Source: Watersipora subatra (lineage: Eukaryota > Bryozoa > Gymnolaemata > Cheilostomatida > Watersiporidae). From it: a DNA stretch of 64,000 nucleotides. A program made the translations under genes and the position numbers. The DNA is taken from positions 30,883,191-30,947,190 of the forward strand of contig NC_088708.1 in the NCBI RefSeq assembly GCF_963576615.1, written 5' to 3'. The notes beneath the pieces are model-generated. The model saw only the letters and a list, made by a program, of their open reading frames with translations. It made no database searches and had not been told where the DNA came from. Of this stretch, positions 5,801-58,800 are shown in pieces (within the stretch, counting starts at the first letter, position 1; every line of letters begins with the position of its first letter).

Positions 5801-8388
5801 ATTATTTTCGAAGTATTGGGTCACATGATCAGATTACGACTTGACGATTGAATAATGCCGAAACGAAACTGTAAGTAGCGAGCTTCTATATATTTAATAC
5901 GGGGTCTTCGGTAAAACCCGAAGTGTGTGTCAAAAACTAGTGCTACGATAAGTTTTATATTGAGCTTTTTATTGGCCTTTCAATTCACGTGAGAACATCA
6001 CGTGACAAGACAATAACCAAATTTCATGGCTACGTCATCGAAATAAAGAGATTCCAATCTACGGCGGCTTTTCGTTTCTGAGCTTTTAAGAGCTTGTAAT
6101 CACATTTCCACATATTTGGCACCTACAACGCAACAGAGTAAGACATGGTGAATCTTTTGATACCAAATAACTGTAATGTGAATTTTATTGCAAGTCAACT
6201 TTTAAGTGTCATTATGCTTACTTTTTTTTTAGCAACCTAAAACATGTTCCTTCAATTGTGATTGCAATTGAATATGGAGTGCGAATACCAACAAGTTTGC
6301 TTTATTACCAGGTTTGGCACAAAAAGATTGCAAACTAAATTTTTACTTTAGATCGTTGATTTAATTCATGATTTGAACCATGTTTTTTTGGAAAAAAATT
6401 GAGATTTATAATTTTCTATAATCGGTGTTTTTTAACAAACAATTTTGTTTCAATGTGTGCGTAACAAGTTTGTAAAAATGGGCTTAAATATTTCATACTG
6501 TCTTTGTATGTCTTTGCCTTTCATTTGAAACTGCTAGTAGCTCTACTCCACTGACTCACATGTTGTTTACACATGATAATTTTATATCACTGTTTAACGC
6601 AAGAAATATAGGAATTGGTTAAGTTAAAGCATATTAGTTGCTAATACTGAAAAGTGGGTTTGTAAAGCATTCTGATATGCAAGACAGTTTGCATGAGCAA
6701 CAATGAACGAAAAAAATCATTGAAAAAAATTTTGAAGCTCCCTTTGGCAATCCTCGCAACAACAATAATTAGCCTCACAGAATAAGTACATGTTATATGC
6801 ATTTTGATCTGTAATACATGTATTCACAAACAATAGTGAGATGAAATTGGGAGGGGGGAGGAAGGAAATCGATGAAAGTGTATTTTAATGATAATTCTTG
6901 TTTAATTGTACAACAGCCTTTACATGCTCAACAGATCTCTGACTAGATGGATTTTGTATGTAAAGGTTTAACTGTACGTGAGTTGTACTCATGCATAGCA
7001 CACTTTGGTTGCAGCCAATTGGAGGATTTGCAAATTCCTGGTACCTGCAAGCCCAAGGTGAGCGGCGGATTACCCTCTGGCCTCACCCAGACTGCACCAG
7101 GAAATGTAATGAAATGAGCATCACCCTGCAAGCCGGAGATCTTGGTATAGTATAATGAAACTTCTGATCTAACAGATGAGTTGCATAGCGTTGCATTTTA
7201 ATGATGACGAACTTTGTCAAATTTTTAAACAAAAATCTCTGAATAATTTGAATTGTCTTTAATAGAATTTTATGATTTTTAAGATTGATTACTGTCGACT
7301 ACTCAACACCTTGACTGACTTTTAGGTCTGATGCTGTTTCCTAAGATACGAATTTTACTGCTGCTATAATACAATTGAACATATCTGAAACCAATCACTT
7401 GCAGCATCACATCCTGTTTTTTGCCCAAGAGTTGTTCAGCAATAAAGAGATAAATCAAAGGTTAAGATGATGGACAATGTTTATCCTTCTTTAAATACCA
7501 TAAAACCTCTATTTGAACGCCATGCACTCAAGTTTTAACCCTTTCCTTATGGTGGTGTTTTATTAGAAGTGACATTCAAATAGAGGTTGGTGTTGTATTT
7601 TTCAAATCACTTGTCAAATTTCCGAAAAGCTAAAATTGTCCTTCTTCCGGTCGAAATGAATCACAAACGAAACGAAGCGGCTAAATTAGTGGCTAAACAA
7701 TATTTTTAACAGAGCAAAACTTTTACGCATTGCTGTTTGAAAAACCTTTTGCCAAAATAATGATAAACATTTAGCCGCATGGGCGCAATATATAGTCTGA
7801 AAATAGTAGTAGACTGTATGGTAATTACTGTATGAACCATTCTTCTCCTATGTCAAAGTATAAAGATCACATTAAACAAGGAACTACTGTTAGTATGATA
7901 GTTATTAATTATTTTATGGCCTTTCAAGGTTTCAAAGAAAAAAACTAAGCTTTGGAGTTAAAAAACCGACTTTGTTACAAACACAACCACGGAAAAAATA
8001 AATCGTAGATCATGTAACAGAGACGTTATTAGTACCATTTTGTGTAAACTTTTCTACTGATCACTCGATATTGTGGCTTAGTAAAGATCAAAGAATGTTT
8101 AAGTGGTTGTCAGATAGAGGTGGCGTTTAATTAAAGGATGGCGCTCTACTTTTCAACCCTTTTGCTATAGTGGCGTTCAAATTGACGTGGCATTCAAATG
8201 AAGGTGGCGTTCAAATTGAGGTTTTATGGTGTGTATAAACTTTTGGCATAGCATGCAAATGTATAAATTAAGTTGTCTATTTTGTAGTGTCTTACCAAGA
8301 CCAGTTCTGGAGACTAGAATCCTCGCCAGTGATTGGACAGGGCAGCCAAGAACTCAGCATTGGATTTGCAGCGAGCTTTGCTCTTTAG
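2883..8388 (+). CDS. C6orf89/BRAP-like type II membrane protein, split gene
   Basis: Proposed exons: 2883-3291, 3495-3655, 4382-4711, 6233-6311, 7015-7057, 8288-8388 (stop TAG 8386-8388). Exons 1-3 join in phase. The N-terminus has the GMS-type helix of C6orf89 (GMSKSEIQDCL, residues ~20-30). One hydrophobic segment follows (~64-100), then a Cys-rich patch (ENPFFVDPIEDCGPC) and the QF...SITDFF stretch that aligns with the human family. Exon 4 (LKHVPSIVIAIEYG) and exon 6 (DQFWRLESSPVIGQGS) resemble the family C-terminus. In vertebrates the protein (bombesin receptor-activated protein) is a Golgi/cytoplasmic factor of poorly known function. Exon 3 leaves phase 0, but the obvious exon 4 acceptor at 6231-6232 needs phase 2, so a microexon, a weaker acceptor near 6206, or a lesion must exist. 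Exon 5 is short and tentative. Identity is fairly sure; the 3' structure is not. Confidence 0.68.
3727..3840. mobile_element. Short palindromic MITE/foldback with a TA-rich centre
   Basis: The left arm (GAGTG...ACGCAAACGCTGTTTTAGAT, from ~3729) is repeated in reverse complement at about 3800-3838, around a (TA)n core at 3766-3789. The arms match over roughly 35 bp with few mismatches. It lies in intron 2 of the BRAP-like gene. The foldback structure and lack of coding capacity suggest a small MITE or a snapback insertion. Confidence 0.6.
5324..6201. mobile_element. TTAA-site MITE, copy 1 (piggyBac-like)
   Basis: This 878-bp element is flanked by TTAA at 5320-5323 and 6202-6205. It has long terminal inverted repeats of well over 100 bp: the left end AGGTTGACTTGCAATAAAAT is mirrored at the right. 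The inner part is asymmetric and has no recognisable transposase. A second copy sits at 49619-50529 in the opposite internal orientation. The exact TTAA target duplication is the hallmark of piggyBac-superfamily elements, so this is a non-autonomous derivative. It lies in intron 3 of the BRAP-like gene, ending about 30 bp before the exon 4 acceptor. Confidence 0.8.
7497..8230. mobile_element. Non-autonomous DNA transposon, ACCATAAAACCTC termini
   Basis: The left end ACCATAAAACCTCTATTTGA (7497) is mirrored at the right end, where GAGGTTTTATGGT closes at 8230. Inside, both ends carry several degenerate copies of a GGCGTTCAAAT motif (subterminal repeats). No transposase is seen. Related sequence occurs at 60031-60170. 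The subterminal repeats resemble those of hAT-like elements, but the superfamily is not established. It sits in intron 5 of the BRAP-like gene, just upstream of the last exon. Confidence 0.6.
8236..8267 (+). repeat. Direct repeat, copy 1
   Basis: The string ACTTTTGGCATAGCATGCAA plus the following ATGTATAAAT is identical at about 8758-8789. Copy 1 lies about 20 bp upstream of the proposed last exon of the BRAP-like gene. Copy 2 is part of a hairpin. Confidence 0.65.
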
Positions 8389-28221: not shown

Positions 28222-31200
28222 TCAGCGTATGGCAAACTGCATCATATCGACACTGCTAAACTTGGGAGGGATAAGTGCGGTGTGCGGGTTCAATTCTGTC
28301 TGGGACATCGGCGAATGAATTTTTATCTCCCGTAAATGAGTGTCTTTACCATTCTGATGGTTTGACACAATGACGATCTACAAAAACAATGACCACTCTG
28401 TTTGGGGTAATTTTCATAAGTATTCTCACCATTCCACAACAATTTCTGACTTTTTGTGAGTGTGTTTCTCTTTTCTGCACACGGTTTTAAAGGTACTAAA
28501 AACTATGGCCAAGTTAAACAATCCGTTAACACAGCATTATGCAAGTCTTTCATGTAGAGCCTAACTTTACCTGCAGCATGAAAGCTTTAACCATCCTATT
28601 GCTACGATTGCGAAGAGGCACTCGCACCCACCCATTTGGCTCATGCAGTTCAATCAGCTCCACCTCAACTAGGTCATGGAAATGTGCACCAGCTCGAATT
28701 GATATCCTATGACAAAAAGATAGAAATGAAGGCTACATATAAAGTGGTCAATATGACTATCTCCTTTAAAATGCTAACACACAACACCATTGGCTGTTTG
28801 TATGTGACAGTAGAATCACCCAATAGCTGCAACAGTGTTCCAAAGTACAAAATACAACTAAATAGCAACAACGTACACACTGTTCCAAACAGTATTCAGA
28901 GGCGTCAGTAGATGTAGGAATAGATTAATCTTGTTTATTTACAGCTTCCCATCCCGAAAGGTATATTCTAACAGAGACTCGGAAAACTTTCATGAGGGCA
29001 TGAATAGCTGCAGATTGCGTAGATGAAGCCATTGCTCAAATGTAAAATCTTTATAACTGTAAAGTGATTTTTCTGTTTTCAAACAATTGTTTTCCGTACC
29101 AATAAATGCAAGGGAAAGTTAAAGTGGCTAGATTCCACAACAGAGCACCCATTTAGTTAGCTAGTTGATGCACAGAAAAAACTCATGGATTAATTGTAGT
29201 GTGATACTCCTGCAAGAAAGCGACCTGGGGCTGTTTCTGAGCAGGGCCTACAGACTTTTGTCTGATGCAGCCCAGACGCGATGAAAGTAGGAAACTCTTC
29301 ATAACATCACCAGTGACCTTTGTGGGACTCGAAAACTGACCAACTGATCATAAGTGGCCCTAACTACTGATGTAGAGAAAAATCTACTGCTGTATGTGCT
29401 GGCAAGTTAATCAAAGTTTGGATAACTAGGAGGAATATAACTGATAGGAGTCAGAGTATATTTGCAGTCCAACTCACTTATTGGGTGTATAGCTTTCATC
29501 ATTCTTATAGTCCATGTAGATACAAAGGTCTGATATGAGCATCTTGCGCTTAAACTGAATGTTGATGTAATGGGGAGTAGCATCATCCGATTGCCAGAAT
29601 TTTGTTGTGCTTGGCTCTCGCAACTGCTGAATTCCAAAACCTGAGAAAATTAAATTCGGATACCATATACACTGCTATATTTATAACGACAAATTAAATG
29701 GAGGCACCATTTTATGACTATATCTCCAATGTCATACTCAGTACAAGATATATTATATTACCAATGTTGCGATGTCAACCTGATAATTCTAAGTTTACAC
29801 AAGCTAGAACAAAAGTCTTACTTAGTAAACGCGTATCCTACAAGACGCATTCTCCTGGGTCAGCATATTTGAGAAGTCTAACCCTGTTCATCCAAGATTT
29901 ACATGTATTTTTATGTTACTCTTGCATGTACCTTATGCCATTATAAAGAAGGTTGTGATTGTTGTAATGTGCTATATGTTGTGAATGTAGGTTATGAATG
30001 GTTATGAATATAGGTTGTGAATGTTGTAATTGGCTATATGGATACTGACATAAATCTTATGCAGCCATACTTTACATTAAACCATAACTGTCACGTACAA
30101 TTTTTATCGTATTTTCAAAGTAAATCAGACAAGCTGATTCCGATTTTGTACTCAAAATAAAGATTGGTCTACTAACTTTTAAAGCCACAAATGCTTTTTA
30201 AAGCGTTTCAATATTCGTTTCGAAAACAACACAATCGGGACAACAAGCTCCGCCCATAAATATGTGACGTAGCCTATCTAAATAGGAAAAAAAATTCCTA
30301 ACTTCCATTCCCAAAAAGCTAGGCTACATCACACATTTATGGGCCGATTGTTGTACCGATTGTTCTGTTTTCGAGACGGATACTGAATGGTTTTAAAAAA
30401 GCCTTCATGACTTCAAAAGTTAGTGGACCAATCTTTATTTTGAGTACAAAATCGGAAACAGCGTGTGTGATTTACCTTGAAAATACGATAAAAATGTTGT
30501 GACAGTTATGGTTTAACTATTGAAGTCAGTTTGCTGTCATTGCTCTAGTATGGATTTACAGTGTGACAACACTATTGCTGCCGATAGGCTGGTTTACACT
30601 ATATCGCCGTTTGTCAGCGTTTTCCTTTCGGCGTTCATCAGCGATTATTTGAACCGTAAACTAATAGCATCAATAAAGCAGCGCGGACACGTCGGGAAAG
30701 TTTGCAGCTGTCGAACTTTTCCGATATTTCGCTGAGTATCGGCGGCCTCCTTTCGATTGTGAACCATTTTAGCGATGGTAATTTGCGGTTGTGGATAGCA
30801 TGATTTATTAATTTCCGTTTATGACAGTCACTGCGGGACTAGTATTTGATTTCAGCAAGCAAAAACAAAGGGATTTCTTCGCAAAAATTTAAAAAAAAAG
30901 AGAACACTACGTCACAGAGTATTTGCTGATGTAAACGCAGATGGGGTTTTAATAGTGTGAACATCGTTATCATCGACCATCACCGAAGTATTGTGGCATC
31001 AACGCTGAAATACGACAGTATAGTGTGAACCAGCCTTTAGCCTCAAAAAAAGCTCATGTGAAGAGTAATTATACTGCATACAAAGTAGGATGCAAGCTAA
31101 TGAATTCTCATTAATTATGGTTAGTCTTCGCATTCAATCCATAAAAGTACAAGTTATATTTGAATGAATATTTCATCTAAGATTATAAGAGTATTAATTT

Positions 31201-34200
31201 TACGCTCTCTTTCAATGATGCCAACTTGAGATGAATGATGCCAACTTGAGATGAATGATGCCTACTAAAGATGAATGATGCCTACTTGAGTTGAATGATG
31301 CCAACTTGAGATGAATGATGCCTACTAAAGATTTATGATGCCAACTTGAGTTGAATGATGCCAACTTGAGTTGAATGATGCCAACTTGAGTTGAATGATG
31401 CCAACTTGAGTTGAATGATGCCAACTTGAGTTGAACGATGCCAACTTGAGATGAATGATGCCTACTTGAGATGAATGATGCCAACTTGAGATGTATGATG
31501 CCAACTTGAGATGAATGATGCCAACTTGAGATGTATGATGCCAACTTGAGATGAATGATGCCTACTAAAGATGAATGATGCCTACTTGAGTTGAGTGATG
31601 CCAACTTGAGATGAATGATGCCTACTAAAGATTTATGATGCCAACTTGAGTTGAATGATGCCAACTTGAGTTGAATGATGCCTACTAAAGATTTATGATG
31701 CCAACATGGTTGAATGATGCCAACTTGAGTTGAATGATGCCAACTTGAGTTGAATGATGCCAACTTGAGTTGAATGATGCCAACTTGAGATGTATGATGC
31801 CTACTTGAGATGAATGATGCCAACTTGAGGTGAATGATGCCAACTTGAGATGAATGATGCCTACTTGAGATGAATGATGCCAACTTGAGATGAATGATGC
31901 CAACTTGAGATGTATGATGCCTACTTGAGATGAATGATGCCAACTTGAGTTGAATGATGCCAACTTGAGTTGAATGATGCCTACTAAAGATTTATGATGC
32001 CAACTTGAGTTGAATGATGCCAACTTGAGTTGAATGATGCCAACTTGAGTTGAATGATGCCAACTTGAGTTGAATGATGCCAACTTGAGTTGAATGATGC
32101 CAACTTGAGATGAATGATGCCAACTTGAGATGAATGATGCCTACTTGAGATGAATGATGCCAACTTGAGATGAATGATGCTAACTTGAGATGAATGATGC
32201 CAACTTGAGATGAATGGTGCCAACTTGAGATGAATGATGCCTACTAAAGATGTATGATGCCAACTTGAGATGTATGATGCCAACTTGAGATGAATGATGC
32301 CAACTTGAGATGAATGATGCCTACTAAAGATGTATGATGCCAACGTGAGATGTATGATGCCAACTTGAGATGAATGATGCCAACTTGAGATGAATGATGC
32401 CTACTTGAGATGAATGATGTCTACTTGAGATGAATTATGCTAACTTGAGATGAATGATGCCAACTTGAGATGTATGATGCCTACTTGAGATGAATGATGC
32501 CAACTTGAGATGAATGATGCCAACTTGAGATGAATGATGCCTACTTGAGATGAATGATGCCAACTTGAGATGAATGATGCTAACTTGAGATGAATGATGC
32601 CAACTTGAGATGAATGATGCCTACTTGAGATGAATGATGCCAACTTGAGATGAATGATGCCAACATGAGATGTATGATGCCTACTTGAGATGAATGATGC
32701 CTACTTGGGTTGAATGATGCCAACTTGAGATGTATGATGCCAACTTGAGATGAATGATGCCAACTTGAGATGAATGATACCAACTTGAGATGTATGATGC
32801 CAACTTGAGATGAATGATGCCAACTTGAGATGAATGATGCCAACTTGAGATGAATGATGCCTACTTGAGATGAATGATGCCAACTTGAGATGAATGATGC
32901 CAACTTGAGATGAATGATGCCAACTTGAGATGTATGATGCCAACTTGAGATGAATGATGCCAACTTAAGATGAATGATGCCAACTTGAGATGTATGATGC
33001 CAACTTGAGATGAATGATGCCTACTTGAGATGAATTATGCCTACTTGAGATGAATTATGCTAACTTGAGATGAATGATGCCAACTTGAGATGAATGATGC
33101 CTACTTGAGATGAATGATGCCAACTTGAGATGAATGATGCCAACTTGAGATGAATGATGCCAACTTGAGATGAATGATGCCAACTTGAGATGAATGATGC
33201 CAACTTGAGATGTATGATGCCAACTTGAGATGAATGATGCCTACTTGAGATGAATTATGCTAACTTGAGATGAATGATGCCTACTTGAGATGAATTATGC
33301 TAACTTGAGATGAATGATGCCAACTTGAGATGTATGATGCCTACTTGAGATGAATGATGCCAACTTGAGATGAATGATGCCTACTTGAGATGAATGATGC
33401 CAACTTGAGATGAATGATGCCTACTTGAGATGAATGATGCCAACTTGAGATGAATGATGCCTACTAAAGATGTATGATGCCAACTTGAGATGTATGATGC
33501 CAACTTGAGATGAATGATGCCTACTTGAGATGAATGATGCCTACTTGAGATGAATTATGCTAACTTGAGATGAATGATGCCAACTTGAGATGTATGATGC
33601 CTACTTGAGATGAATGCCTACTTGAGATGAATGATGCCTACTTGAGATGAATGATGCCTACTTGAGATGAATGATGCCAACTTGAGATGAATGATGCCAA
33701 CTTGAGATGAATGATGCCAACTTGAGATGAATGATGCCAACTTGAGATGTATGATGCCAACTTGAGATGAATGATGCCAACTTGAGATGAATGATGCCAA
33801 CTTGAGATGAATGATGCCAACTTGAGATGGATGATGCCAACTTGAGATGAATGATACCAACTTGAGATGTATGATGCCAACTTGAGATGTATGATGCCAA
33901 CTTGAGATGAATGATGCCAACTTGAGATGAATGATACCAACTTGAGATGTATGATGCCAACTTGAGATGAATGATGCCAACTTGAGATGAATGATGCCAA
34001 CTTGAGATGTATGATGCCAACTTGAGATGAATGATGCCTACTTGAGATGAATGATGCCTACTTGAGATGAATTATGCTAACTTGAGGTGAATGATGCCAA
34101 CTTGAGATGAATGATGCCTACTTGAGATGAATGATGCCAACTTGAGATGAATGATGCCAACTTGAGATGAATGATGCCAACTTGAGATGAATGATGCCAA

Positions 34201-37200
34201 CTTGAGATGAATGATGCCAACTTGAGATGTATGATGCCAACTTGAGATGAATGATGCCTACTTGAGATGAATGATGCCTACTTGAGATGAATTATGCTAA
34301 CTTGAGATGAATGATGCCAACTTGAGATGTATGATGCCTACTTGAGATGAATGATGCCTACTTGAGATGAATGATGCCTACTTGAGATGAATGATGCCAA
34401 CTTGAGATGAATGATGCCAACTTGAGATGAATGATGCCTACTTGAGATGAATGATGCCAACTTGAGATGAATGATGCCAACTTGAGATGAATGATGCCTA
34501 CTAAAGATGTATGATGCCAACTTGAGATGTATGATGCCAACTTGAGATGAATGATGCCAACTTGAGATGAATGATGCCTACTTGAGATGAACGATGTCTA
34601 CTTGAGATGAATTATGCTAACTTGAGATGAATGATGCCAACTTGAGATGTATGATGCCTACTTGAGATGAATGATGCCAACTTGAGATGAATGATGCCAA
34701 CTTGAGATGAATGATGCCTACTTGAGATGAATGATGCCAACTTGAGATGAATGATGCTAACTTGAGATGAATGATGCCAACTTGAGATGAATGATGCCTA
34801 CTTGAGATGAATGATGCCAACTTGAGATGAATGATGCCAACTTGAGATGTATGATGCCTACTTGAGATGAATGATGCCTACTTGGGTTGAATGATGCCAA
34901 CTTGAGATGTATGATGCCAACTTGAGATGAATGATGCCAACTTGAGATGAATGATACCAACTTGAGATGTATGATGCCAACTTGAGATGAATGATGCCAA
35001 CTTGAGATGAATGATGCCAACTTGAGATGAATGATGCCTACTTGAGATGAATGATGCCAACTTGAGATGAATGATGCCAACTTGAGATGAATGATGCCAA
35101 CTTGAGATGTATGATGCCAACTTGAGATGAATGATGCCAACTTGAGATGAATGATGCCAACTTGAGATGTATGATGCCAACTTGAGATGAATGATGCCTA
35201 CTTGAGATGAATTATGCCTACTTGAGATGAATTATGCTAACTTGAGATGAATGATGCCAACTTGAGATGAATGATGCCTACTTGAGATGAATGATGCCAA
35301 CTTGAGATGAATGATGCCAACTTGAGATGAATGATGCCAACTTGAGATGAATGATGCCAACTTGAGATGAATGATGCCAACTTGAGATGTATGATGCCAA
35401 CTTGAGATGAATGATGCCTACTTGAGATGAATTATGCTAACTTGAGATGAATGATGCCTACTTGAGATGAATTATGCTAACTTGAGATGAATGATGCCAA
35501 CTTGAGATGTATGATGCCTACTTGAGATGAATGATGCCAACTTGAGATGAATGATGCCAACTTGAGATGAATGATGCCTACTTGAGATGAATGATGCCTA
35601 CTTGAGATGAATTATGCTAACTTGAGATGAATGATGCCAACTTGAGATGTATGATGCCTACTTGAGATGAATGCCTACTTGAGATGAATGATGCCTACTT
35701 GAGATGAATGATGCCTACTTGAGATGAATGATGCCAACTTGAGATGAATGATGCCAACTTGAGATGAATGATGCCAACTTGAGATGAATGATGCCTACTT
35801 GAGATGAATGATGCCTACTTGAGATGAATGATGCCAACTTGAGATGAATGATGCCAACTTGAGATGAATGATGCCAACTTGAGATGAATGATGCCAACTT
35901 GAGATGAATGATACCAACTTGAGATGCATGATGCCAACTTGAGATGTATGATGCCAACTTGAGATGAATGATGCCAACTTGAGATGAATGATACCAACTT
36001 GAGATGTATGATGCCAACTTGAGATGAATGATGCCAACTTGAGATGAATGATGCCAACTTGAGATGAATGATGCCAACTTGAGATGTATGATGCCAACTT
36101 GAGATGAATGATGCCTATTTGAGATGAATGATGCCTACTTGAGATGAATTATGCTAACTTGAGGTGAATGATGCCAACTTGAGGTGAATGATGCCAACTT
36201 GAGATGAATGATGCCTACTTGAGATGAATGATGCCAACTTGAGATGAATGATGCCAACTTGAGATGAATGATGCCAACTTGAGATGAATGATGCCAACTT
36301 GAGATGAATGATGCCAACTTGAGATGTATGATGCCAACTTGAGATGAATGATGCCTACTTGAGATGAATGATGCCTACTTGAGATGAATTATGCTAACTT
36401 GAGATGAATGATGCCAACTTGAGATGTATGATGCCTACTTGAGATGAATGATGCCTACTTGAGATGAATGATGCCTACTTGAGATGAATGATGCCAACTT
36501 GAGATGAATGATGCCAACTTGAGATGAATGATGCCTACTTGAGATGAATGATGCCAACTTGAGATGTATGATGCCAACTTGAGATGAATGATGCCAACTT
36601 GAGATGTATGATGCCTACTAAAGATGTATGATGCCAACTTGAGATGAATGATGCCAACTTGAGAAGAATGATGCCAACTTGAGATGTATGATGCCTACTA
36701 AAGATGTATGATGCCAACTTGAGATGAATGATGCCAACTTGAGATGTATGATGCCTACTAAAGATGTATGATGCCAACTTGAGATGAATGATGCCAACTT
36801 GAAATGAATGATGCCTACTTGAGATGAATGGTGCCAACTTGAGATGAATGATGCCTACTTGAGATGAATGATGCTAACTTGAGATGAATGATGCCAACTT
36901 GAGATGAATGATGCCAACTTGAGATGTATGATGCCTACTAAAGATGTATGATGCCAACTTGAGATGAATGATGCCAACTTGAGATGTATGATGCCTACTA
37001 AAGATGTATGATGCCAACTTGAGATGAATGATGCCAACTTGAAATGAATGATGCCTACTTGAGATGAATGGTGCCAACTTGAGATGAATGATGCCTACTT
37101 GAGATGAATGACGCCAACTTGAAATGAATGATGCCTACTTGAGATGAATGGTGCCAACTTGAGATGAATGATGCCTACTTGAAATGAATGATGCCTACTT

Positions 37201-38146
37201 GAAATGAATGGTGCCAACTTGAGATGAATGATGCCTACTTGAGATGAATGATGCCAACTTGAGATGAATGATGCCAACTTGAGATGAATGATGCTAACTT
37301 GAGATGTATGATGCCAACTTGAGATGAATGATGCCAACTTGAGATGAATGATGCCAACTTGAGATGAATGATGCCAACTTGAGATGAATGATGCCAACTT
37401 GAGATGAATGATGCCAACTTGAGATGAATGATGTCAACTTGAGAGGAATGATGTCAACTTGAGATGAATGATGCCAACTTGAGATGAATGATGCCAACTT
37501 GAAATGAATGATGCCTACTTGAGATGAATGGTGCCAACTTGAGATGAATGATGCCTACTTGAGATGAATGATGCCAACTTGAAATGAATGATGCCTATTT
37601 GAGATGAATGATGCCAACTTGAAATGAATGATGCCTACTTGAGATGAATGATGCCAACTTGAGATGAATGATGCCAACTTGAGATGAATGATGTCAACTT
37701 GAGATGAATGATGCCAACTTGTGATGAATGATGTCAACTTGAGATGAATGATGCCAACTTGAGATGAATGATGCCAACTTGAGATGAATGATGCCAACTT
37801 GAGATGAATGATGCCAACTTGAGATGAATGATGCCAACTTGAGATGAATGATGCCTACTTGAGATGAATGATGCCAACTTGAGATGAATGATGCCAACTT
37901 GAGATGAATGATGCCAACTTGAGATGAATGATGCCAACTTGAGATGAATGATGCCAACTTGAGATGAATGATGCCAACTTGAGATGAATGATGCCAACTT
38001 GAGATGAATGAGCAGTAAGAAAATTTCACACCTGGTTTACATGATGATAGTGACCAGACAGCTTGACTACCGATCTCTCTCAGTTGCTTCTCTTTTTCAA
38101 ATTTCTCCACATCCAAAGTTTGCAGTCCAGTAAATTTGGTGGCCAT
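28222..38146 (-). CDS. ANAPC10: Anaphase-promoting complex subunit 10 (APC10/DOC1)
   Basis: Exons on the minus strand: 38146-38032, 29640-29478, 28706-28571, 28377-28222. All have GT-AG borders and matching phases, giving 189 aa (human 185). APC10 is the DOC-domain processivity subunit of the APC/C ubiquitin ligase and forms the D-box receptor with CDC20/CDH1. Recognisable segments: REIGSQAVWSLSSCKPG (23-39), FWQSDDATPHYINIQFKRK (53-71), DLCIYMDYKNDESYTPNK, GWVRVPL, NHQNGKDTHLREIKI (144-158), and the C-terminal IR dipeptide that docks on the TPR subunit APC3/CDC27. The first ~22 residues are divergent, as is usual. Intron 1 is about 8.4 kb and almost filled by a 20-bp satellite and two MITEs. 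All key motifs are intact, so the gene looks functional. Confidence 0.96.
30081..30512. mobile_element. Palindromic TTAA-site MITE, second family
   Basis: This 432-bp element is flanked by TTAA at 30077-30080 and 30513-30516. The ends ACCATAACTGTCAC are inverted, and similarity between the arms continues almost to the centre (near 30295), making a long foldback. It is coding-free and lies in ANAPC10 intron 1. The terminal sequence differs from the element at 5324-6201. Confidence 0.78.
30586..31036. mobile_element. MITE with AGGCTGGTTYACACTATA ends
   Basis: The left end AGGCTGGTTTACACTATA (30586) is matched in inverse by TATAGTGTGAACCAGCCT ending at 31036. The interior (451 bp in all) is non-coding and partly GC-richer than its surroundings. 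It lies in ANAPC10 intron 1 between the TTAA MITE and the satellite. Target duplication is unclear. Confidence 0.7.
31213..38010. repeat. 20-bp satellite array, ~340 copies, in ANAPC10 intron 1
   Basis: The unit is ATGATGCCAACTTGAGATGA with a few recurring variants: CCTACTTGAG, CTACTAAAG, GAATTATGCTAAC and TTGAATG. Because 20 is not a multiple of 3, the sense (minus) strand reads a 20-residue period, SSWHHSSQVGIIHLKLASFI, open for long stretches in all three frames. The plus strand is closed by TGA in every frame. Long copies of the array are duplicated: a segment near 32322-34498 recurs about 2.18 kb later, and a 240-bp block near 36670-36910 recurs at once. The array ends about 20 bp inside the intron from the exon 1 donor (38031). 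The many open frames are a property of the repeat, not genes. Confidence 0.97.
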
Positions 38147-38293
38147 TTTGCTTGTAAGACCTAATTAAAAACCTTACTGATCATAAAGGGTCTCGGAGTA
38201 ACTGCAAAATTTTATTGCTTTAGAGCAGCCATTCATTTCATACATAGCTGAGAAGTCGCGCTGAATTTTCAAAAGTGATAACAGCATTTAGAG

Positions 38294-38423
38294 TATACCG
38301 CAGTATGAACAGAACAAATTCAATGTATACTTGTCAAACATACGTTGTTAGTTTTGCAATAGTAATTGATATTATTGTTTGACAACGTTACATTGAACTT
38401 GTTCTGTTCATACCGTAGTATAC
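38294..38423. mobile_element. 130-bp palindromic MITE
   Basis: TATACCGCAGTATGAACAGA at the left is answered by TCTGTTCATACCGTAGTATA (offset by one base) at the right. The arms continue through TTCAATGTA and GTCAAACA around a short AT-rich centre. It is too small to code. The TA-rich ends would suit a mariner-type MITE; it lies ~150 bp upstream of the ANAPC10 start codon. Confidence 0.65.
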
Positions 38424-38816
38424 TGTAAACTCACTGCATTCTATTCTCTCACCAAAAATTCAAGGAGAAATTTATTCATTATCCACAAATAGGCCAACTT
38501 GTGAATTATGAGTACAGAACTTGTGTATATTCTGCACCATTAACTAACCATTTGTTTATTGCTGGGCCTAATAAAAAGTAGAAGGTAAAAAAGCTTTACA
38601 TTCAAACAACCCAAACTGCACAAATAAGTTACAAACTATATAATATGTCCTTATACACCCATACAGCATATATCCTACTGCTTCCACTTACCTACTAATG
38701 ATGGAATTCAGAATTAATACGAGTACTAAAAATGAAGTGCTCTGCAGCTATTGGAGCAACGCATAGGGTTAAAAATGGTTTCGGTTTTTTGTTAATTTTC
38801 TGTTGATTAACTATTA

Positions 38817-38865
38817 GCAGTTTCATGAATGACGTTGTTGAAGGCAACAACTGTCATGAAACTGC
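38817..38865. repeat. Short stem-loop
   Basis: GCAGTTTCATGA at 38817 pairs with TCATGAAACTGC ending at 38865. The inner GTTGTTGAAGGCAACAAC closes a compact hairpin with a two-base bulge. The size is in the range of a microRNA precursor or a small foldback element. There is no other evidence for expression. Confidence 0.5.
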
Positions 38866-39327
38866 CAGTAGTAGTAGTTCAATGATAGACTAACAAATAA
38901 GTACAATGATTTTTGTGGTCATTTTATATTTTATAAAATTCTTGTATCTTTTAATTGCTTGTACTCAAACTAAAATTATTTTGTATTTAGCGAATCGGTC
39001 ATTTATAAGAATTCAATAACTATTGCGAGTATACCATCAGAGCATGCTCGGACCGCGCACTACCTAAATACTTGTATTTCTGTTAACTGTAGATTATATC
39101 CATTTGAAAATAACCAAAAACCTTTAATAGAACATATTTTTGATTGGAACAAAAAATATTTATATAAACATGTGGGCCAGAGTTGATAAATATTTCCTTG
39201 ATCAGTAATTACCACCGTTAAAATCCAAGTAAAAACTGGGTGGGAAAACGAAGTGGAAACAATCAAAATGAAAAAATGATAATATTTCGAAACATTTTTC
39301 ATTTTGATTCTCATGCGCTGGAATCTG

Positions 39328-40840
39328 TGTTGAGATAGAGTTCGATGCCATGGATTTAATAGTGTGAGCTTTGATTAACATGTATTGCCTTCATAATTTA
39401 TACAGGATGAGAGAAACGCACAGAGGATTTTAGGATAAAAATAGTGAATATAAAATGATCACATTTAGGAGTTGTTCTTTCTTGTCCATGGTGGAGGCAA
39501 CTGCTAAACATAACATTGTAGTATAAGTAATAAAATAGCGGTTTTATTGTTAGTTTAACACACCCCCTCAATCAATAACGCTCATTCCTAGTATTCTAAT
39601 GGCAGTAAAGTGTTTGATTTTCTCAAGAGGTTTTGTAAGTACATCGGCGATGTTTGACTCGGAGGCGATGTGTTTGTAAATGATACTGGTTTGTTCTCGG
39701 ATAAAGTGATGACAAATGTTGATATGATTGGACCGCGAATGATGTCCCTCCCCTTTTGTAAGAGCCAATACACCTTGCTTATCTGAATACATAGTGTTTT
39801 GTTCGGGTTGTTTTATGTCGAGTGAGGAGCAGAAGGATCAGAGGTAAATCATTTCTTTGGTGGCCTCGCTCAATGCGACGTATTCTGCTTTGCAGCTTGA
39901 TAATACTATGGTTGATTGCTTGGTTGATCTCCAGCTGATAGGCGCTGAACCGAGTGTCATAATAAATCCTGTTGTGGAGCGACGATCGTCTACGTCACCC
40001 GCCCAGTCAGAGTCAGCAAAACCTTCGAGTATACCACTAGTTGGGCAGTAGGTTAGGCCATGCGTTACAGTACCGCTGAGATAACGTAATAAATGTTTTA
40101 CCACCGTGACTTGGGCTGGTCCGGGTTTATCAAGGTATTGCGAAAGCTTAGATACAGTCCAACTGATATCTGGTCTCATCGCTGTCGTTAAGTATATTAA
40201 ACTGCCAATTACCTCGCGATAGAGAAACCCGGATTTGCAAACTTGTTCGTATTCGTCATCGGTATAGCCTTTTGGAGTTGTATTCCGCTGGTGCTTGGGG
40301 TGAATACTGATTTGCATTCAGCCATGTCGTAGCGTGCTAGTACTTGTTTGGCATATCTGGATTGGTCGATAGTGTAGCTTCCGTCAGTGTTTCATTTGAA
40401 ATCGATACCCAGGAACCAGTTGAGCTTTTCACGATCATCGATTTCGAATTTACTTTGGAGTTGTTTGGTAGTTTCGATGTATTTTGTAGATTATCCTGCC
40501 AAGATAATGTCGTCAACTCAGAATACAAGTAAAATGTATTCCTCGCAACTCTCCTCACCGTTGGTAACACACAGGGGTCATGAGAATTTGATTTGAATCC
40601 ATTTGATTTTAGAAAGTTAGTTAGTGTTTCGAACCACATACATCCGCTGTGTATTAGTCCATACATCATTTGTTGAGTCTATATGTGAGTTTCTCGAGAG
40701 CGTAAGTTTTAGGTTCATAACCGAGCGGTGGAGCTAAATATATTTCTTTATCAATAGGAGCATTGAGATAGGCCCCTTTGACGTCTAGTTGGTGGAGAAT
40801 GAGGTTTTCGTTGGCTGCCTTCTGAATTAGACTACGAAAT
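39328..40840 (-). mobile_element. 5'-truncated Ty1/Copia retrotransposon
   Basis: On the minus strand, reverse-transcriptase fragments (QLDVKGAYLNAPIDKEIYL near 40785-40730) lead into the Copia linker and RNase H region. A purine tract (GAGGGGGTG) and one LTR (39328-39560, 233 bp) follow; the LTR begins TGTTAAAC and ends CTCAACA. No 5' LTR, gag or integrase is found, and similarity stops near 40840. It is a dead 3' fragment. Confidence 0.82.
39568..40830 (-). pseudogene. Copia pol fragment (RT and RNase H)
   Basis: The best preserved part (40317-39838) reads YREVIGSLIYLTTAMRPDIS, then SKLSQYLDKP, GFADSDWAGDVDDRRSTTGF and CKAEYVALSEATKEMIYL. The end (39792-39568) carries HHFIREQ, ESNIADVLTKPLEKIK. 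These are the standard Ty1/Copia RNase H landmarks, including the DSDWAGD and ADVLTKPL motifs. The YVDD box of the polymerase near 40525 is not intact (the frame reads LYSELTTLSW), and frame shifts separate the pieces. Confidence 0.85.
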
Positions 40841-46169: not shown

Positions 46170-49100
46170 ATGCATGTATTGCAGATTATGAATGAGATGG
46201 ATGAAGAAGATGCTGATGGTTTCTCACACACAGGTGATGATAATGAGCTGCTTTAATGATATATTTGCAGCCAATGGTCATTTAATTCTTGTCACGGTTT
46301 AATTTCTTACAGATCCTCTACGAATGATACATTGTAATATTTCTGAATTGGATCCTGAAAAGTCGTATTTATTAAGTTTGATTGTTTGCCTTAGTGCCTT
46401 GCATCTCCGTAATATTTATACACTTTTAGGTTTGGAGCATTTAACCTTGCAAGAGATACAGCAATTGCGTGATAAAATCGGAATCAAACAGTGAGTAAAG
46501 CAGAATCTTACCAGCATAATATAAAGGCATGGAATGAAAATAGTAGATTATTGTGTTCGAAAATGAAATTGAATTTCTTTATTATGCAGCTACGGTTTGA
46601 GGTCTATCAGTTTTTAATATTTGGACTCGCTGTATCCCTCGGGTCTTGGCCTAGTTTATTTGAACTATTTTATAAACAAGCGATGACAACAACATGTCTA
46701 TACATTTATGTGAGCTGATGACCACGGTTAAAGGCAAGGGTATTGTAAATCTTATACAACCCCTACATTTTTAGTATCACAACTTTTAACATTATGTCAT
46801 CAGTTTTCCGTGATGGAGTGTACTATTGACCAAACCCATGACCACATTTCATTGTTCCTTATTTTCAGGTATCATTTCAAGATTCTTCCTGTCAGTTATT
46901 GGCTCATTGCAGATTTAATAAAAAGTATGGCCGACAGAAAGGCATCTCTCAAAGAGGTTTTATGCAAAAGAAAAAGAGAAGCAAAGATTCCGGGTCAGTC
47001 TTCATATATATAATGTACTTAGAAAGTTGAGATAATCACTAGACCAATTTTCGTTAATAATTTGATTACTACATTACAGCCCGATGGAAATGTCATCGAA
47101 ACGTCCTAGCAACAACACAAGTACTCTTCGTAAGAAACCTGTCACTAGGGACCCACGGTTTGATGACCTCTCTGGTCAATACAATGAGCAGATCTTTAAA
47201 AGATCCTACAAATTTATAGACCGGCTCAAGGCCAAAGAGATGAAGGTAGGACCAAAGGCTTGAAATTGAAAGCAATGACTGGCAAACCTTTGTGCACAGT
47301 TTATGATTAGTATAGTCTGGATGCAAGTTGAATTGATATTGGCATCGAGGCCTTCATCGAAGTTTTCTGTTTCTTACACTGTATAACTTGGTTCAATTCA
47401 GGTAAAACCTTTGCATACATTGTTCAGCTGTATGGCCAAAATGACTATTGAATCAGCCTTTTAATTGAAAGCCTTTTTCGAAGATCAACAGAAAGTATGT
47501 CAACAGACAAGAAGTTATATTAACACCCTTTCACCAATACCAGGTTATTTCCTAGGTTATCTAGAAATAAATAAGTTGGTCATTAGATGTAATGTTTCAT
47601 ATTTGGTTTGGAATTTGGTTTGAGAAGAGGTGTAGTAACTAAGTGATACTAAGTTAAGTTACACTGATGGCACTTGATATGCCATGGGTGGTCAGCTACA
47701 CTGGTAACACCTGATATGTCATGAGTTGTCAGCTACACTGGTAACACCTGATATGTGATGAGTTGTCAGCTACACTGGTGATACCTGATATGTGATGAGT
47801 TGTCAGCTACACTGGTGACACCTGATATGTGATGAGTTGTCAGTTGCACTGGTAACACCTGATATGTCATGAGTTGTCAGTTACACTAGTGACACCTTAT
47901 GTCATGGGTGGTCAGTTACACTAGTGGCACCTGATTATGTCATGAGTTGTCAGTTACACTGGTGACACCTGATTATGTCATGCGTTGTCAGTTACACTGA
48001 TGACACCTGATTATGTCATGGGTGGTCAGTAATACTAGTGGCACCCGATATGTTGAGGTTAACAGCTCTACCAAATGTTTTTGGCATATTGTGTGTAGTC
48101 TGTTTCACCAATTCTCCTAATATACTGTCGGCGGTCAATCACACCATTAGCAGAGCTCACATGTTATGGGGTGAGACGCTGTCATGCGAGTTGCATACGT
48201 TTTGGGTGGACCATCATGGTAGTTCCCCTGACATGTTGCCAGTGGTTGTTCACACTAGTAGCAGCTAACAATGTCCTAGACTGACGCTGCAGTCAATGCA
48301 GTCCGTGGTCTCCAAGTTGCCTTATTAAAGTATCTACCTGAATGCCCAGCATTGCATGGGCAATAAAAAGTTTTTGCATAGAGAATTTATTTTTAGTTGT
48401 GCAAGTTTGTTTACCGAATGAATTTGAGTAACCAAAACTTATTTACTATAATAAGAACCGTGTCTGTCCCTCTGAAGCCAGCGTTAGACAAAAAATTGTC
48501 ATGGTCTCTCACGCAATCATGATTTTTAGGTGTGCTAGATGAATCGTGAAGCGTGCTATTTTATCCATCGACGTTAAAGATTGGCAGATGTAATAAGTAT
48601 GATGTGCACAATTATTCCATAGTATGGTCAGTTAGGAACATAGTGTAATGGATAGCACGCCTGTCTGCAAAGCTGGAGGTTCTGAGTTCAATTCCATTGC
48701 GAAGCGGTTTTTTGTTCCTACAACTTCATTGCTATAACCATACACACGAATGACAGACGACAAACAAACACTGAGATTTATATACAGTATATAGATAAGT
48801 TTTACTTTTATTATCTGCCATCTTTTGTTATTGTGGATCTGCTTGTACGCTTTAGTTGGGAGCCTTTGTTCGATTATACATCGTGTAAGAATAATAGTGT
48901 TTGTAGGTAGTTGCTATTGCTTTTAGGCTGTTAGGAAGATAGCAGATGATGAAGAAATGGATGAGGAGACGAGAAAGAAAGCAAAAGATATGCTGACAAG
49001 GATGGTGAGTACCTCCTTGAATAGAAAGAAATTTACCTGTTACAATTGGTGTGATGTTTTTGTAGCTTTATAGAAAAGCCATCTTTGGTCTAACCGAATA

Positions 49101-52100
49101 GCTATTTTTGGTTTTTGGAGCCTGTTGAATGTTAGCTTTTCTTCAAACATACATATCGAGAGACGTTTCCAATTATACATGTATGTCCACTGTAGGACAG
49201 CATGTTATATCCTGCTAATTAGAAGTATCCTACAGTACATTTCAGATATTATAAAAAGCAAAAAAATAGTTGATCACATTTGTTTCAGATACATGTAGAG
49301 GTATTGATCTACATGTATATGCCAATGGACAGAGGATGTATGTAGCATAATGCATTACTCAGGTATATGACAATTACGAGGTCTGATCCAAAAGTTCCTA
49401 GAATGGAGTTGTATACACTTGCATATTTGCACGATGGAAAATCCACTGCAGCGTTTGCCGGGAAACACCTCCAGAGTGTTGTCACAAAATTTCAGGTTGC
49501 TATGACAACGCGTCCTCACATGAGCCGATGATATGTCAAGGTCTGTCAAGTGTTTCCAGCGATTTTTTAACAAATTTATCGTCATTTCTAATCAATCGGA
49601 ACAGCGTATTTGCGTTAAAGGTTTATTTGCAACAAAATTCACATTACAGTTATTTAGTATAAAAAGATTCACCATGTCTTACTCTGCTGTGTTGTAGGTG
49701 CAAAATATGTGGAAACGTGATTACAAGCTCTTAAAAGCTAAAAAACGAACAGTTAATTGCAGCCATCACAAAACCGCCGTGTATTGGAATCAGTTTATTT
49801 CTCAGACGTACTCAAACAATTTGGTTATTGTTTTGACATGTGATGTTCTCACGTGAATTGAAAGGCCAATAAAAGGCTCAATATAAAATTTCTCGTAGCA
49901 CTAGTTTATGACTAACACTTCGGGTTTTACCGAAGAGCCCATATCAAATATAGATGCTCGCTACTTCAGTTTTGTTTCGGCTTAGTTTGATCGTCTAGTC
50001 GTAATCTGATCATGTGACCCATACTTCCTGCCAAACAGCGCGAGTAATTTCTGCAGCATTTTTTGACTATCACAGGTGACCAACAGGCTCGTCATGTTTA
50101 TCAGAGGATGATGTGCACTCCTTCGAGCCAAGGTTAAAAAATTGAATGAATTTTTACGGTAGGTTTTGAGATAGCAGTGCTCAAAGTAACAGCATTACAA
50201 TGATGACGATGAGATAGACGCGCAAGGACAATAGACATGGTTTTATTGAATGCGTGAAGTATATTTGTGAAAATATTTAGACAAATGAGGTTGCATGAAA
50301 GTGTAAACAGAAACCATTGTACTCAACAACATCCCATTTGAGCTGTTTTGGAAAGGGATTCCAGCCTATGGCGTTTTCGTGATGGCTGCGATTAACTGTT
50401 CATTTTTGAGCTTTTAAGAGCTTGCAATCACATTTTCACATATTTTTCACCTACAACACAGCAGAGAAAGACATGGTAGATCTTTTGTTATCAAACAACT
50501 GTAATGTGAATTTTGTTGCAAGTTAACCTTTAAAATTTGTGTGAAATTAGGGAAAACAAGTACTCAGACAGTTGAAATGTTAAATATTGCCTTTGGAGAT
50601 GCTGCTCTGAAGAAAACACCAGTTTTTGAGTGGCACAAACGTTTTCGTGAGGGTAGAGACAGCATTGAAGATGATGCGAGGTCTGGAAGACCAGCCTCGG
50701 CCAGAACTTGTTCGTCGATCGACAGTGTGAGGTCACTAGTCATGGCAGATTGTCGTTTATCCATTAGAGAGATATCTGGAAAGACTGGACTTAGTTTTGG
50801 TACTGTTCAAATAGTTTTAACTGACGATTTACACATGAGAAGAATCGCAGCAAAGTTTGTGCCACGTTTGCTAACTGATGACCAAAAGGAGCTCAGGATG
50901 CACACTTGCAACGATTTCAAGGAAACTTCAAAAATGATAAAACCTTTCTTTCGAAGGTAATAACTGGAGATGAGTCTTGGGTGTATGGTTATAACCTAGA
51001 GACTTAAATTCCAAAGTAGCCAGTGAAAGTCTCCGGGCTCCCAAGACCAAAACAGGCGAAGATGTCTCGGTCAGTTGTAAAGACCATGCCGATTGCGTTT
51101 TTTGATATTCATGGATTAGTACACCATGAGTACTTACCACAGGATACTACTGTGAATCAGTATGTTTATATTGAGATTTTGAGACATCTTAGGGAAAGAG
51201 TTAGGCGCAAAAGACCTGAACTGTGGCACACAAGTTCATGGATGCTGCCCCATGATAACGCACTCGCCCACACTGCATTTTCTGTGAAGCAGTATTGCGC
51301 TAAAAACAACATGGCCGTTCTACCACATTTTCCATATTCACCAGATCTGGTTCCCTGTGGCTTCTGGCTATTTCCTAAGTTAAAACTTACTATGAAAGGA
51401 ACCAGATTTGACAGGATAGAGTCGATTCAATGTGCAACAATGAGAGAGCTAAACAGCATCAACGCCGATGGCTTTCAACACTGCATGGCATCATGGCAAA
51501 AGAGGTGGGACAAGTGTATTGGTAGCCAAGGGGAGTACTTTGAAGGGGACTAACTATATAGGCAAATTGAAGCAACGCGTTTTGAGTTATAGCTCCATTC
51601 CTGGAACTTTTGGATCAGACCTCATACATATGGTTTAACACAAAATGACAGTGTGTTATTTGCATGTCAATTGATGGTATATGACATATACATGTATAGT
51701 TATTAAAATAGCATGGTGGAGTACTCTAACTCTGAATGGTTGTCACTATTTTAAAAATTTTGAGTTCTCATTGGTGGATACTCTAGTGCATTGTTTAGTA
51801 TTTATGCGATCCCTAGTCCAGCAAAGTTCATTACTTATTCAACATTACATTTGCACAAAAATTACGTAACTAAAGCTACGTGCAGATATGGTATGGATAC
51901 ATATGGTCTTGGCCTGATATACACCAGATGCATTTCAGGGACAGAAAAAGAACGCCAAAAAGGAAATGTCAGCGGCTAGTAAGGTTGAGCAGGCTCTAAA
52001 AGATGAGAGAAAAAAGGCTATTAAAGAAGGTCATAAACCATATTTTCTCAAAGATGGTGAGTTAGACCTAATGCTACTAAAACTTAGCTTAAGTCCTTTA

Positions 52101-55800: not shown

Positions 55801-58800
55801 ACATCAATATATTGTATCTTCAACACACTAAACTAATCTAATTTGAAACTGGGAGAGTTTCCTTTGAGCGGGCTGTCTCAGGAATGTGATTGCTACATAA
55901 GCATACAGATGTTATCCGAACATAAAATATGACTGTTCGTCGTACAAAGGGCTAAACATTATCTTGAGAAATAATTGGCAGAGGGCCAAGTGTCATAGAC
56001 TGATAGGCGTACCAAAATCAGTGTCTTCAGCGAGAGCTCTACCAAACCACGGAACTGATGGAAATAGCCTCAGTGACTCCTTTATGCACCAATCCAGGTA
56101 CGTCATCTTTGCTAAGTCATCCATGGTGAAGTCTCTAGGGCTATCTATGATGGCAAGAAAGCAATTGAATTTAATCTAAAGGTGTCAGTGAAAACAGTTC
56201 TATCAGTGAGAAATCACAAATGATGGTAAGACATTTTTTGCTTTTCCCAAAGAGTTATCAGCCCCTAGAATGTGAACTAAACAATACTTAATAATATTTG
56301 TGAAAGTTTAAAAACTACTTAACCTACCTCAATCCATAGAAGTATCTAGTTTTAGGAAATTACAGCTACAAGACCTCTCCTAATAATAAAGGGCACTAAC
56401 AAATTTATTTTATAAACACTATAAAATACAATTCTATAATTCACCTAGTAAAATGTAAGTAATATAACTTCCCGCATGCAGCAACCTAAAGCAGGGCTTA
56501 TCTTATCTAAAAACTAAACCCAGATAGTCAACAGCCATATCTAAGCAGAGGCTTTTACTGATTGCGGCAACTAGTACAAGTGTTTGCTTTACCCATTATC
56601 TCATCCAGCTCCTTTTGACACCTGCGTTGAGCATCAAGATTGGCTCCAAGTAAATGAACTGTGTGCGCTGTAGCTGCTGACACAGTATCATGACCCTGCA
56701 ACATTGTAAAGCAGGTTAGACTGTTCTACAGCACTGTACGACCGGTGGTATCAGAGAAACTCCAGAGAAACAACTCTACCTCACCTAGTCTGAGAACATT
56801 AGCATTTACGATAATTACATCAGCTCCTGCAATACATGTACAACCATTTCTTCTCAATGCGCGCTTGACTTGGTTTTCAAACTAAATCCCATAATGCATA
56901 GCTGTGGCGCATAACTAAGAACAGACAAGAGAACAGTTCTCTTGCTATGAGATATATCTATCTACATACTTATAAAACTCTGATCATCCTGTAATTTTAC
57001 ATGTACTTGAAACCATTGCATTGAAGAAATAATATATAGGTGATTAAAGCTTGATAAAATATTGCATTTAACGGGTCTCGAACTCGTAGCATTCAGATAT
57101 GTTGACCAGCTGCTACAATACGACCGCCACATGAATGAGCAGACTAATCTGTAGTATAAGAAAAGTGATGATCTGTGATGTTATGAAAGTTCTAGAATGA
57201 GGGAAGAGTTATAAGATTAGACTAACTAAGGCTTAAGTTAATGTGTAAAAGTGGGTCAACTTCAAACAATGGCAGGCTTAGTTGGCAATCATAGAACTTT
57301 TGTTTTTCATATAAATATGCCACACGATCTATCGGATTAGAAACTCAAGAATTCATCTTTGCACGTGTCAAGGACAGTTGTTCTCAATGAATCCGTTCAT
57401 GGATTTTTGTCATGAAACAAATTTTTGTTGAAAATGAAAGAAATCCTGAGCATCGCTGGGCATTCACCTAGTAATATATAAACTATGGTTACTTTAATAT
57501 CTTTCCATGTAAACTAAGCATTGTGTAAACATCAAAAATAAAAAGGCCAACATTGAGATGTTATGAATTTAGCCTTCACAATACCACAGTCAACCTGCCT
57601 GTAATCGTAATCGCGTCTAACCATTCTTAGTCTCTGTTTACATAGACTAAAAAACAGTGTGGAACAGTTAGTGAAAAAGCTCCACAACCCCAGCCCTATA
57701 GCCCCAGCACCTCAAACATGAATGTATCAACTTCTTCTCGAATCTCCTCATCTGTCAAGGCGTTGCCATGCTCATCTCTACACTCCAGTAGAATATCGAG
57801 AAATGCTTTGTGCTTGCCTCCAAACTCTACCTCACCTTTCATCTCCTGCCGCTCTCTTATAACCTGCCATATCATTGGCTACTCATTTAATATCAGCCAA
57901 TAGAAGTCAGTGTGAAACTAGTACACAGATGATAGGCCAAAGAAGGCTTTATTCGCCAATTTTTATATGATCAAAAATTGGATGTTTCCTAACCACATCC
58001 TAATGCCAGTCACAAAGTTTTAGCAACGAAGTGGCATGCAGATGGCCAATTCTTGATTATTGATTCTCACTAAAACCACAACAGTTGCAATAAAAACAAA
58101 AAGCAAATGAGTTGGATTTTTTTCGCTAAACCAAGGTCAATTATAAAACTAAAAGTAACATCAAGGCGTTGGCAGGGCTGGTGTGTTAGTACTAACAATA
58201 CCAGATTCAGGGAAGACAAGCTATTTAATGTACCCAACCCCTAAGGAAAATAGTACAGATACCAAAGCTAGATGAAGTTGTTGAAGCTAAATATCTCAGA
58301 AAAGACCTACTATAATTGTTAGCAAGTAGTTCTAAAAAGCATGTAGTATTCTAAAGAAATTGTAGAAGAATAAAGTAAAACTCGTCAGCATGCAATATGG
58401 TTCGTAGTATTCATCAACTACCCTGCCTAGGACCCTGGTACTAGTACTAGGAGCCTGGTACTAGTACTAGGACCCTGGTACTAGTACTAGGACCCTGGTA
58501 CTAATACTAGGACCCAGGTACTAGTACAAGGACCCTGGCTTTAGTATTCATCAACTACCTTGCCTAGGACCCTAGTACTAGGACCCTGGCTTTAGTATTT
58601 AAGTAAATCTGTGCATTGAGTAAGGGCCAAGAAGATTGTACCTTGTAGGCATATTGATGCATCGTGTCTATTGCTTTGTTCACTTTGCGACCAACTGGAA
58701 GAGAGTTGTATATAAAATCAGGCCAATACCACGGGGTTCGTTGTCTCACAGCCACAGCTTCTTTTACCAAATAAACGGCCTTCACATAGTCAGATTCTCC

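Follow-up and report, generated by a model that had tools for sequence, protein, structure and literature searches.

The first intron of ANAPC10 holds a 6.8-kb array of a 20-bp tandem repeat, and we consider it highly probable that this array is a locally grown, passive and tolerated minisatellite, which lies in an intact gene, is spliced out and most likely does nothing for APC10. The window, i.e., the whole stretch of 64,000 nucleotides that was analysed, is located at 30.88-30.95 Mb of a 79.4-Mb contig in an assembly of 784 Mb and 239 contigs. The array presents a clear and bounded case of a locus-private minisatellite that takes up the greater part of an intron in a conserved cell-cycle gene, with the splice sites and coding exons untouched. 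For a single-locus intronic minisatellite, it is ordinary, though large.

The array and its host gene

The gene, its first intron and the array are placed in the window as follows:

38032-38146, minus strand: coding exon 1 of ANAPC10, from the ATG, with the donor gtgtga (gene model)
29641-38031, minus strand: intron 1 of ANAPC10, 8,391 bp, phase 1, 81% array, reading gtgtga ... ttctcag between exon 1 (38146-38032) and exon 2 (29640-29478) (gene model)
31214-38011, minus strand: single-locus minisatellite array, 340 monomers of 20 bp, sense unit CATCTCAAGTTGGCATCATT (TRF, segmentation and genome-wide counts)
29478-29640, minus strand: exon 2 of ANAPC10 (gene model and profile match)
28571-28706, minus strand: exon 3 of ANAPC10 (gene model and profile match)
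28222-28377, minus strand: exon 4 of ANAPC10, with the stop codon and the C-terminal Ile-Arg (gene model, Pfam and profile match)

TRF detected a single long array in the window (31214-38011; period 20, 340.2 copies, 92% matches, score 11496). Of the 340 monomers that segmentation found in its 6,798 bp, 337 have the full 20 bp, while two measure 17 bp and one 19 bp; for an array of such size, a test against chance is unneeded. The exact consensus on the minus strand, which is the gene strand, is CATCTCAAGTTGGCATCATT and accounts for 137 of the 340 monomers, followed by the variants CATCTCAAGTAGGCATCATT (56) and CATCTCAAGTTGGCATCATA (36). The array is separated from the 5' splice site by 20 bp and from the acceptor by 1,573 bp. 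These results confirm the observation of the first-pass annotation, which had placed about 340 units in ANAPC10 intron 1, roughly 20 bp from the 5' splice site, and whose interval of 29641-38031 is exactly that intron. A length of 8.4 kb is ordinary for an intron in animals.

The four exons on the minus strand have GT/AG borders and produce a complete open frame of 189 residues, with introns of 8,391, 771 and 193 bp; the coding exons are thus intact, as had been proposed. The predicted protein matched Pfam PF03256 (APC10 Doc domain) over residues 20-171 with 221 bits (E=1.3e-65), and 84 of its 158 aligned residues were identical to those of the solved chain 5a31_L (APC subunit 10), which upholds the identification of the gene as ANAPC10. 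In this alignment, the border between exon 1 and exon 2 is crossed without a gap. Moreover, Glu87, Ser88 and Asn147, which are described as D-box contacts, and the final Ile-Arg, which is described as the IR tail (PMC5717348), are all present. Exon 1 encodes the conserved stretch REIGSQAVWSLSSCKP and is also the only place where a search of the window in six frames found the motif W[ST]LSS, so a complete APC10 should need exon 1 joined to exon 2. We infer from the sequence that the two exons are joined, i.e., that splicing takes place across intron 1.

A profile search of the 784-Mb assembly returned four matches. Three were exons 2, 3 and 4 (73.1, 48.6 and 30.8 bits), while the fourth, at 22.38 Mb on contig 1, scored 33.4 bits, which is more than exon 4, and contained two stops. 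Within the limits of the profile search, no second intact copy of ANAPC10 was seen in the assembly. The match at 22.38 Mb was rejected as an ANAPC10 retrocopy that would prove splicing, as it had no DNA match to ANAPC10 and its best tblastn hit reached an E value of 3.3 over 7 residues. It may be another Doc-type domain or an old pseudogene.

A single locus in a genome with array-rich sampled stretches

Minisatellites, which belong to the VNTR class, consist of head-to-tail tandem units of roughly 10-100 bp, while a satellite DNA family forms many or megabase arrays that are typically pericentromeric or heterochromatic. With its 20-bp unit and 340 monomers, the ANAPC10 array has the structure of a minisatellite. 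When up to one mismatch was allowed, the unit had 279 matches in the 784-Mb assembly (278 on the minus strand and one on the forward strand) and 278 in the window array alone. Additionally, a two-unit pattern with up to three mismatches matched 297 times in the assembly and 297 times in the window. The window thus accounts for 278 of the 279 single-unit matches and for all 297 two-unit matches. By these equal counts, no other array of the 20-bp unit was found in the 784-Mb assembly, in which withheld stretches are given as N, and the array is therefore a single-locus minisatellite and not a dispersed satellite. The term "satellite", which had been used for it initially, does not hold, since its unit is arrayed nowhere else in the assembly and since minisatellites are frequent in 20 sampled stretches of the genome. 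In other sequence collections, the exact unit was found 0 times in viral contigs and once, as an isolated 20-mer, in a bacterial bin, and by our estimate about one match is expected by chance in that much DNA.

Intron 1 contains two further elements, both of which sit in its last 1.6 kb, between the array and the acceptor:

30077-30516, no strand assigned: palindromic MITE-like element in intron 1 with 18-nt perfect terminal inverted repeats
30586-31036, no strand assigned: second MITE-like element in intron 1 with 36-nt terminal inverted repeats that are 83% complementary

The label of both elements is ours and was derived from their structure at the locus. Without the array and these two elements, about 0.7 kb of the intron is left. 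MITE-like elements were also observed upstream of the ANAPC10 ATG.

That such elements share the intron with the array and also lie upstream of the ATG would be in line with an array that was carried in by a transposable element, which, together with descent from a dispersed satellite family, is an alternative to local growth at this locus. However, by the equal counts, no further array of the unit was detected in the assembly, and the two-unit pattern, which as a transposon-borne repeat should recur in other copies of the element, is found in this array only. A comparison of the flanks of the array (38012-40000 with 29001-31213) also gave no significant match, with a best E value of 0.12. The genome-wide counts have thus largely refuted a dispersed or transposon origin, which we regard as extremely improbable.

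The background was sampled in 20 stretches of 10 kb that were spread over contig 1, all of which were analysed using TRF, and an array was assigned to the minisatellite type when its smallest period was 10-100 bp. Tandem arrays of any kind of at least 300 bp were present in 13 of the 20 stretches, and minisatellite arrays of at least 300 bp in 11 (24 arrays in total). Arrays of at least 1 kb were found in four stretches when all kinds were counted and in three when only minisatellites were considered. The longest sampled array was 3,075 bp and none reached 6.8 kb, in a sample that comes from one contig and whose 10-kb stretches cut arrays off, with two arrays beginning at the first base of a stretch. 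When the 24 sampled units and the window unit were compared, none of the 300 pairs had a 10-mer in common. Tandem repeats of all kinds made up 27,116 of the 194,690 readable sampled bases (13.9%) and only 1.4% of the window outside the array. Because similar arrays are frequent in the sample, the ANAPC10 array is a large member of a common class. Where sampled stretches are this rich in arrays, a single large array needs the genome background before it is called special.

Block structure and proposed growth of the array

Alignment within the array revealed a pair of long blocks in the arrangement of a tandem segmental duplication:

34470-36566, minus strand: block A, monomers 72-176 (counted from 0), 2,097 bp (alignment to block B)
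32293-34469, minus strand: block B, monomers 177-285, 2,177 bp, directly adjoining block A (alignment to block A)

The two blocks were identical at 2,047 of 2,057 aligned bases (99.5%), with gaps of 120, 20 and 20 bp, and their best ungapped score was 118.1 compared with at most 17.9 in 30 shuffles of the monomer order. Weaker similarities were found within each of the blocks (96-98% in three comparisons), and comparisons with segments from outside the blocks gave 92-94% (three comparisons). The array is most uniform at its exon-1 end, where the first 13 monomers show 1 difference (permutation p 0.00015), and most diverged at its far end, where the last 34 show 47 differences (p 0.0024); the lengths of the tested ends were chosen after looking. 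The uniformity of the exon-1 end is as expected if the array was recently homogenised near exon 1.

The pair of blocks may have arisen through genuine segmental duplication, or the assembler may have placed two alleles in tandem. In the latter case, part of the array would be an assembly artefact, with the block of about 2.1 kb present once per haplotype and a true array nearer 4.6 kb. The direct adjacency of two blocks with such a high identity in their aligned bases fits this explanation, and their differences, which amount to 10 substitutions and gaps of whole units (120, 20 and 20 bp), are such as alleles might show. However, the weaker block similarities also occur inside blocks A and B, and tandem block duplication is also a normal growth mode of such arrays, which counts against an artefact. 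We judge the artefact to be unlikely; it can also hold alongside the explanation of the array as a passive minisatellite.

The history that we propose for this passive minisatellite is one of local growth. Tandem duplication of a short piece of ANAPC10 intron 1, close behind the 5' splice site, would have come first, with replication slippage or unequal exchange then raising the number of copies. Homogenisation would have made the array partly uniform, with its strongest effect near exon 1, before the duplication of a single block of roughly 2.1 kb added about one third of the present length. The two MITE-like elements would also have entered the intron. As part of the pre-mRNA, the array would be transcribed and then spliced out in the ordinary way, since it leaves the donor and acceptor of the intron and its last 1.6 kb untouched and since its sense strand is free of strong processing signals.

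The sense transcript and possible effects on APC10

The poly(A) signal A[AT]TAAA, the motifs GTRAGT and AGGT and the acceptor-like Y7NYAG with its long pyrimidine run were all absent from the sense array, while elsewhere in the window they occurred on the minus strand at 2.1, 0.5, 3.7 and 0.35 per kb, respectively; the shorter GTRAG was also absent from the sense array. Weak acceptor-like TTTAG sites were present 15 times (2.2 per kb compared with 1.8 in the rest), as was the looser YYYNYAG, and the branch-point-like motif YTNAY was found at 38.5 per kb compared with 23.7 in the rest. Judging from these motifs, cryptic splicing at the TTTAG sites is possible. A 400-nt piece of the sense RNA folded worse than all 100 of its dinucleotide shuffles (z +5.05), whereas the antisense of the array piece folded slightly better than most shuffles (z -1.95). 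The sense-strand GC skew of the array is -0.25, i.e., the strand is C-rich, and together with the weak folding this gives no reason to expect G-rich R-loops or stable hairpins.

Several roles for the transcript were considered on this basis. Recursive splicing requires AG|GT and was rejected, as the sense array contains no AGGT. R-loops that are formed by G-rich sense RNA follow the sign of the GC skew and are unsupported here, since a sense skew of -0.25 has the wrong sign. A transcript selected to be "transparent" was compared with a control in which 1,500 20-mers from the window were tandemised and set against the consensus unit. The motifs A[AT]TAAA, GTRAG, AGGT and YYYNYAG, a set close to that used for the array, were absent from 79.8% of the control 20-mers, while 27.6% showed folding as weak as that of the consensus unit and both properties were combined in 22.4%. 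Selection for transparency was rejected because 22.4% of the control 20-mers match the unit in both folding and the absence of motifs and because the real array itself has 15 YYYNYAG from the control set. Most of this combination of absent motifs and weak folding is a near-default for a tandem 20-mer. The frame from exon 1 is open into the array and the consensus unit is stop-free in all of the sense frames; in the real array, however, the exon-1 frame stops after 150 residues. A retained-intron protein was rejected as coding in view of this stop and of the 22.4% of the 1,500 control 20-mers that are stop-free. Rfam gave no matches in the window at the gathering cut-off.

The suggestion in the first-pass annotation that the array could affect APC10 dosage, pausing or chromatin finds no support in these properties, with a sense array that lacks strong processing signals and folds weakly. 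Such an effect is possible. Transcription and splicing over the array "in every cycle" is an assumption.

Among the systems that are known, the closest in kind is the intronic 30-bp VNTR (TRACT) of human CACNA1C, which spans 3-30+ kb and shows an association of its long alleles with lower expression in fibroblasts and testis (PMC13131567). Both are kilobase-scale arrays of a short unit in an intron of a conserved gene, with mixed unit variants and runs of identical units (PMC13131567). However, length polymorphism and a link to expression are known for CACNA1C, whereas the ANAPC10 array is known from one assembly, has a 20-bp unit with other letters and lies 20 bp from the 5' splice site. The Drosophila Y genes kl-3 and kl-5 have gigantic introns with megabases of simple satellites (PMC6508621; PMC11207136). 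They resemble ANAPC10 in having tandem repeats in the introns of protein-coding genes, and transcription of the repeats with the gene, which would be expected here, has been seen there (PMC6508621; PMC11207136). Unlike these megabase satellites, for which a special expression programme has been proposed, the ANAPC10 unit is private to its locus and fills 6.8 kb of an 8.4-kb intron; gigantic introns measure hundreds of kb to Mb (PMC11207136), and ANAPC10 intron 1 measures 8,391 bp. In Tribolium, dispersed copies of the satellite TCAST1, likewise tandem repeats close to genes, accompany an increased suppression of neighbouring genes after heat (PMC4537270), but TCAST1 is the major pericentromeric satellite with dispersed copies, whereas the unit in the ANAPC10 intron is found at one locus. 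All that the ANAPC10 array has in common with these systems as a set is a tandem repeat near or in a gene. In literature searches of partial coverage, no paper about this array was found for ANAPC10 with intron and tandem repeat, as judged by titles and the start of abstracts; it was absent from the titles among the matches listed for intron satellites, minisatellites and euchromatic satellites, and no paper on invertebrate intronic minisatellites was found.

The CACNA1C association (PMC13131567) and the enhanced suppression near Tribolium satellite copies after heat stress (PMC4537270) would favour a functional regulatory VNTR, whose length or unit make-up tunes the output of ANAPC10 via pausing, chromatin, or cryptic or delayed splicing. 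The location of the array in intron 1, towards the promoter, and the 15 TTTAG sites with the excess of branch-point-like motifs point in the same direction. However, the sense array has no strong processing signal, its transcription-easing properties hardly depart from the default for a tandem 20-mer, arrays of this kind are common in the sampled stretches, and the Tribolium effect belongs to a major pericentromeric satellite and not to a unit at one locus. We thus consider a regulatory VNTR improbable and prefer the passive minisatellite; the array would matter more if its length were polymorphic and tied to ANAPC10 output.

A more specific form of regulation would involve Nova/Pasilla-type splicing proteins, which act just inside the 5' splice site. 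Nascent intron 1 could be a putative binding platform for such a protein, with the array length setting its recruitment and thus the splicing efficiency of ANAPC10, which we hold to be highly improbable. The motif YCAY occurs 582 times in the sense array (567 of them as UCAU), i.e., at 85.6 per kb compared with 16.1 in the rest of the window, and was not found on the other strand of the array; the run of sites starts directly behind the 5' splice site. After allowing for the number of motifs that could be picked, this excess is a weak basis; two YCAY per 20-bp unit were reached by 4.0% of 114,310 control 20-mers.

Minisatellites in the window and along contig 1

Two small minisatellites lie elsewhere in the window:

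47657-48053, small minisatellite, 37-bp unit, 10.7 copies
58427-58538, small minisatellite, 20-bp unit, 5.6 copies

Their units differ from that of the array in ANAPC10 intron 1, as is predicted by the single-locus picture of that array. The sampled parts of contig 1 are rich in minisatellites: among 20 stretches of 10 kb from the same assembly (L026-L045), 11 held minisatellite arrays of at least 300 bp, 24 arrays in total, and no two of these 24 had a 10-mer in common. The more interesting question may be a genome-wide tendency towards making minisatellite arrays.

ANAPC10 and a second profile match

If intron 1 were retained, the reading frame of exon 1 would continue into the array (frame 37694-38164), giving a hypothetical product of 150 residues, the tail of which has a 20-residue periodicity. 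Around the start of the gene and at a second site on contig 1, the following were found:

38287-38429, hairpin element of 143 bp, arms of 54 nt that are 85% complementary
L004 (stretch of contig 1 around 22.38 Mb) 1501-1863, second match to the ANAPC10 profile, 33.4 bits, two stops

Approximately 140 bp separate the hairpin from the ANAPC10 start codon downstream of it; the element lies within the promoter or the 5' UTR. A DNA comparison of the 22.38-Mb profile match with the ANAPC10 gene in the window gave no match; the 22.38-Mb site may represent a different Doc-type domain or a pseudogene of old origin.

Mobile-element-like sequences

The reading frame at 39838-40317 looks like part of a Copia-type polyprotein, a label that is our own; a Pfam search of this frame (E 0.01) returned no families. 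Further elements were as follows:

5320-6205 and 49615-50533, two mutually inverted copies of an approximately 0.9-kb element, 84% identical
50505-51553, mariner-like stretch split across two frames, with a Mos1-type HTH and Transposase_1

The copy at 49615-50533 has inverted ends of approximately 165 bp and overlaps the start of the mariner-like stretch by 29 bp.
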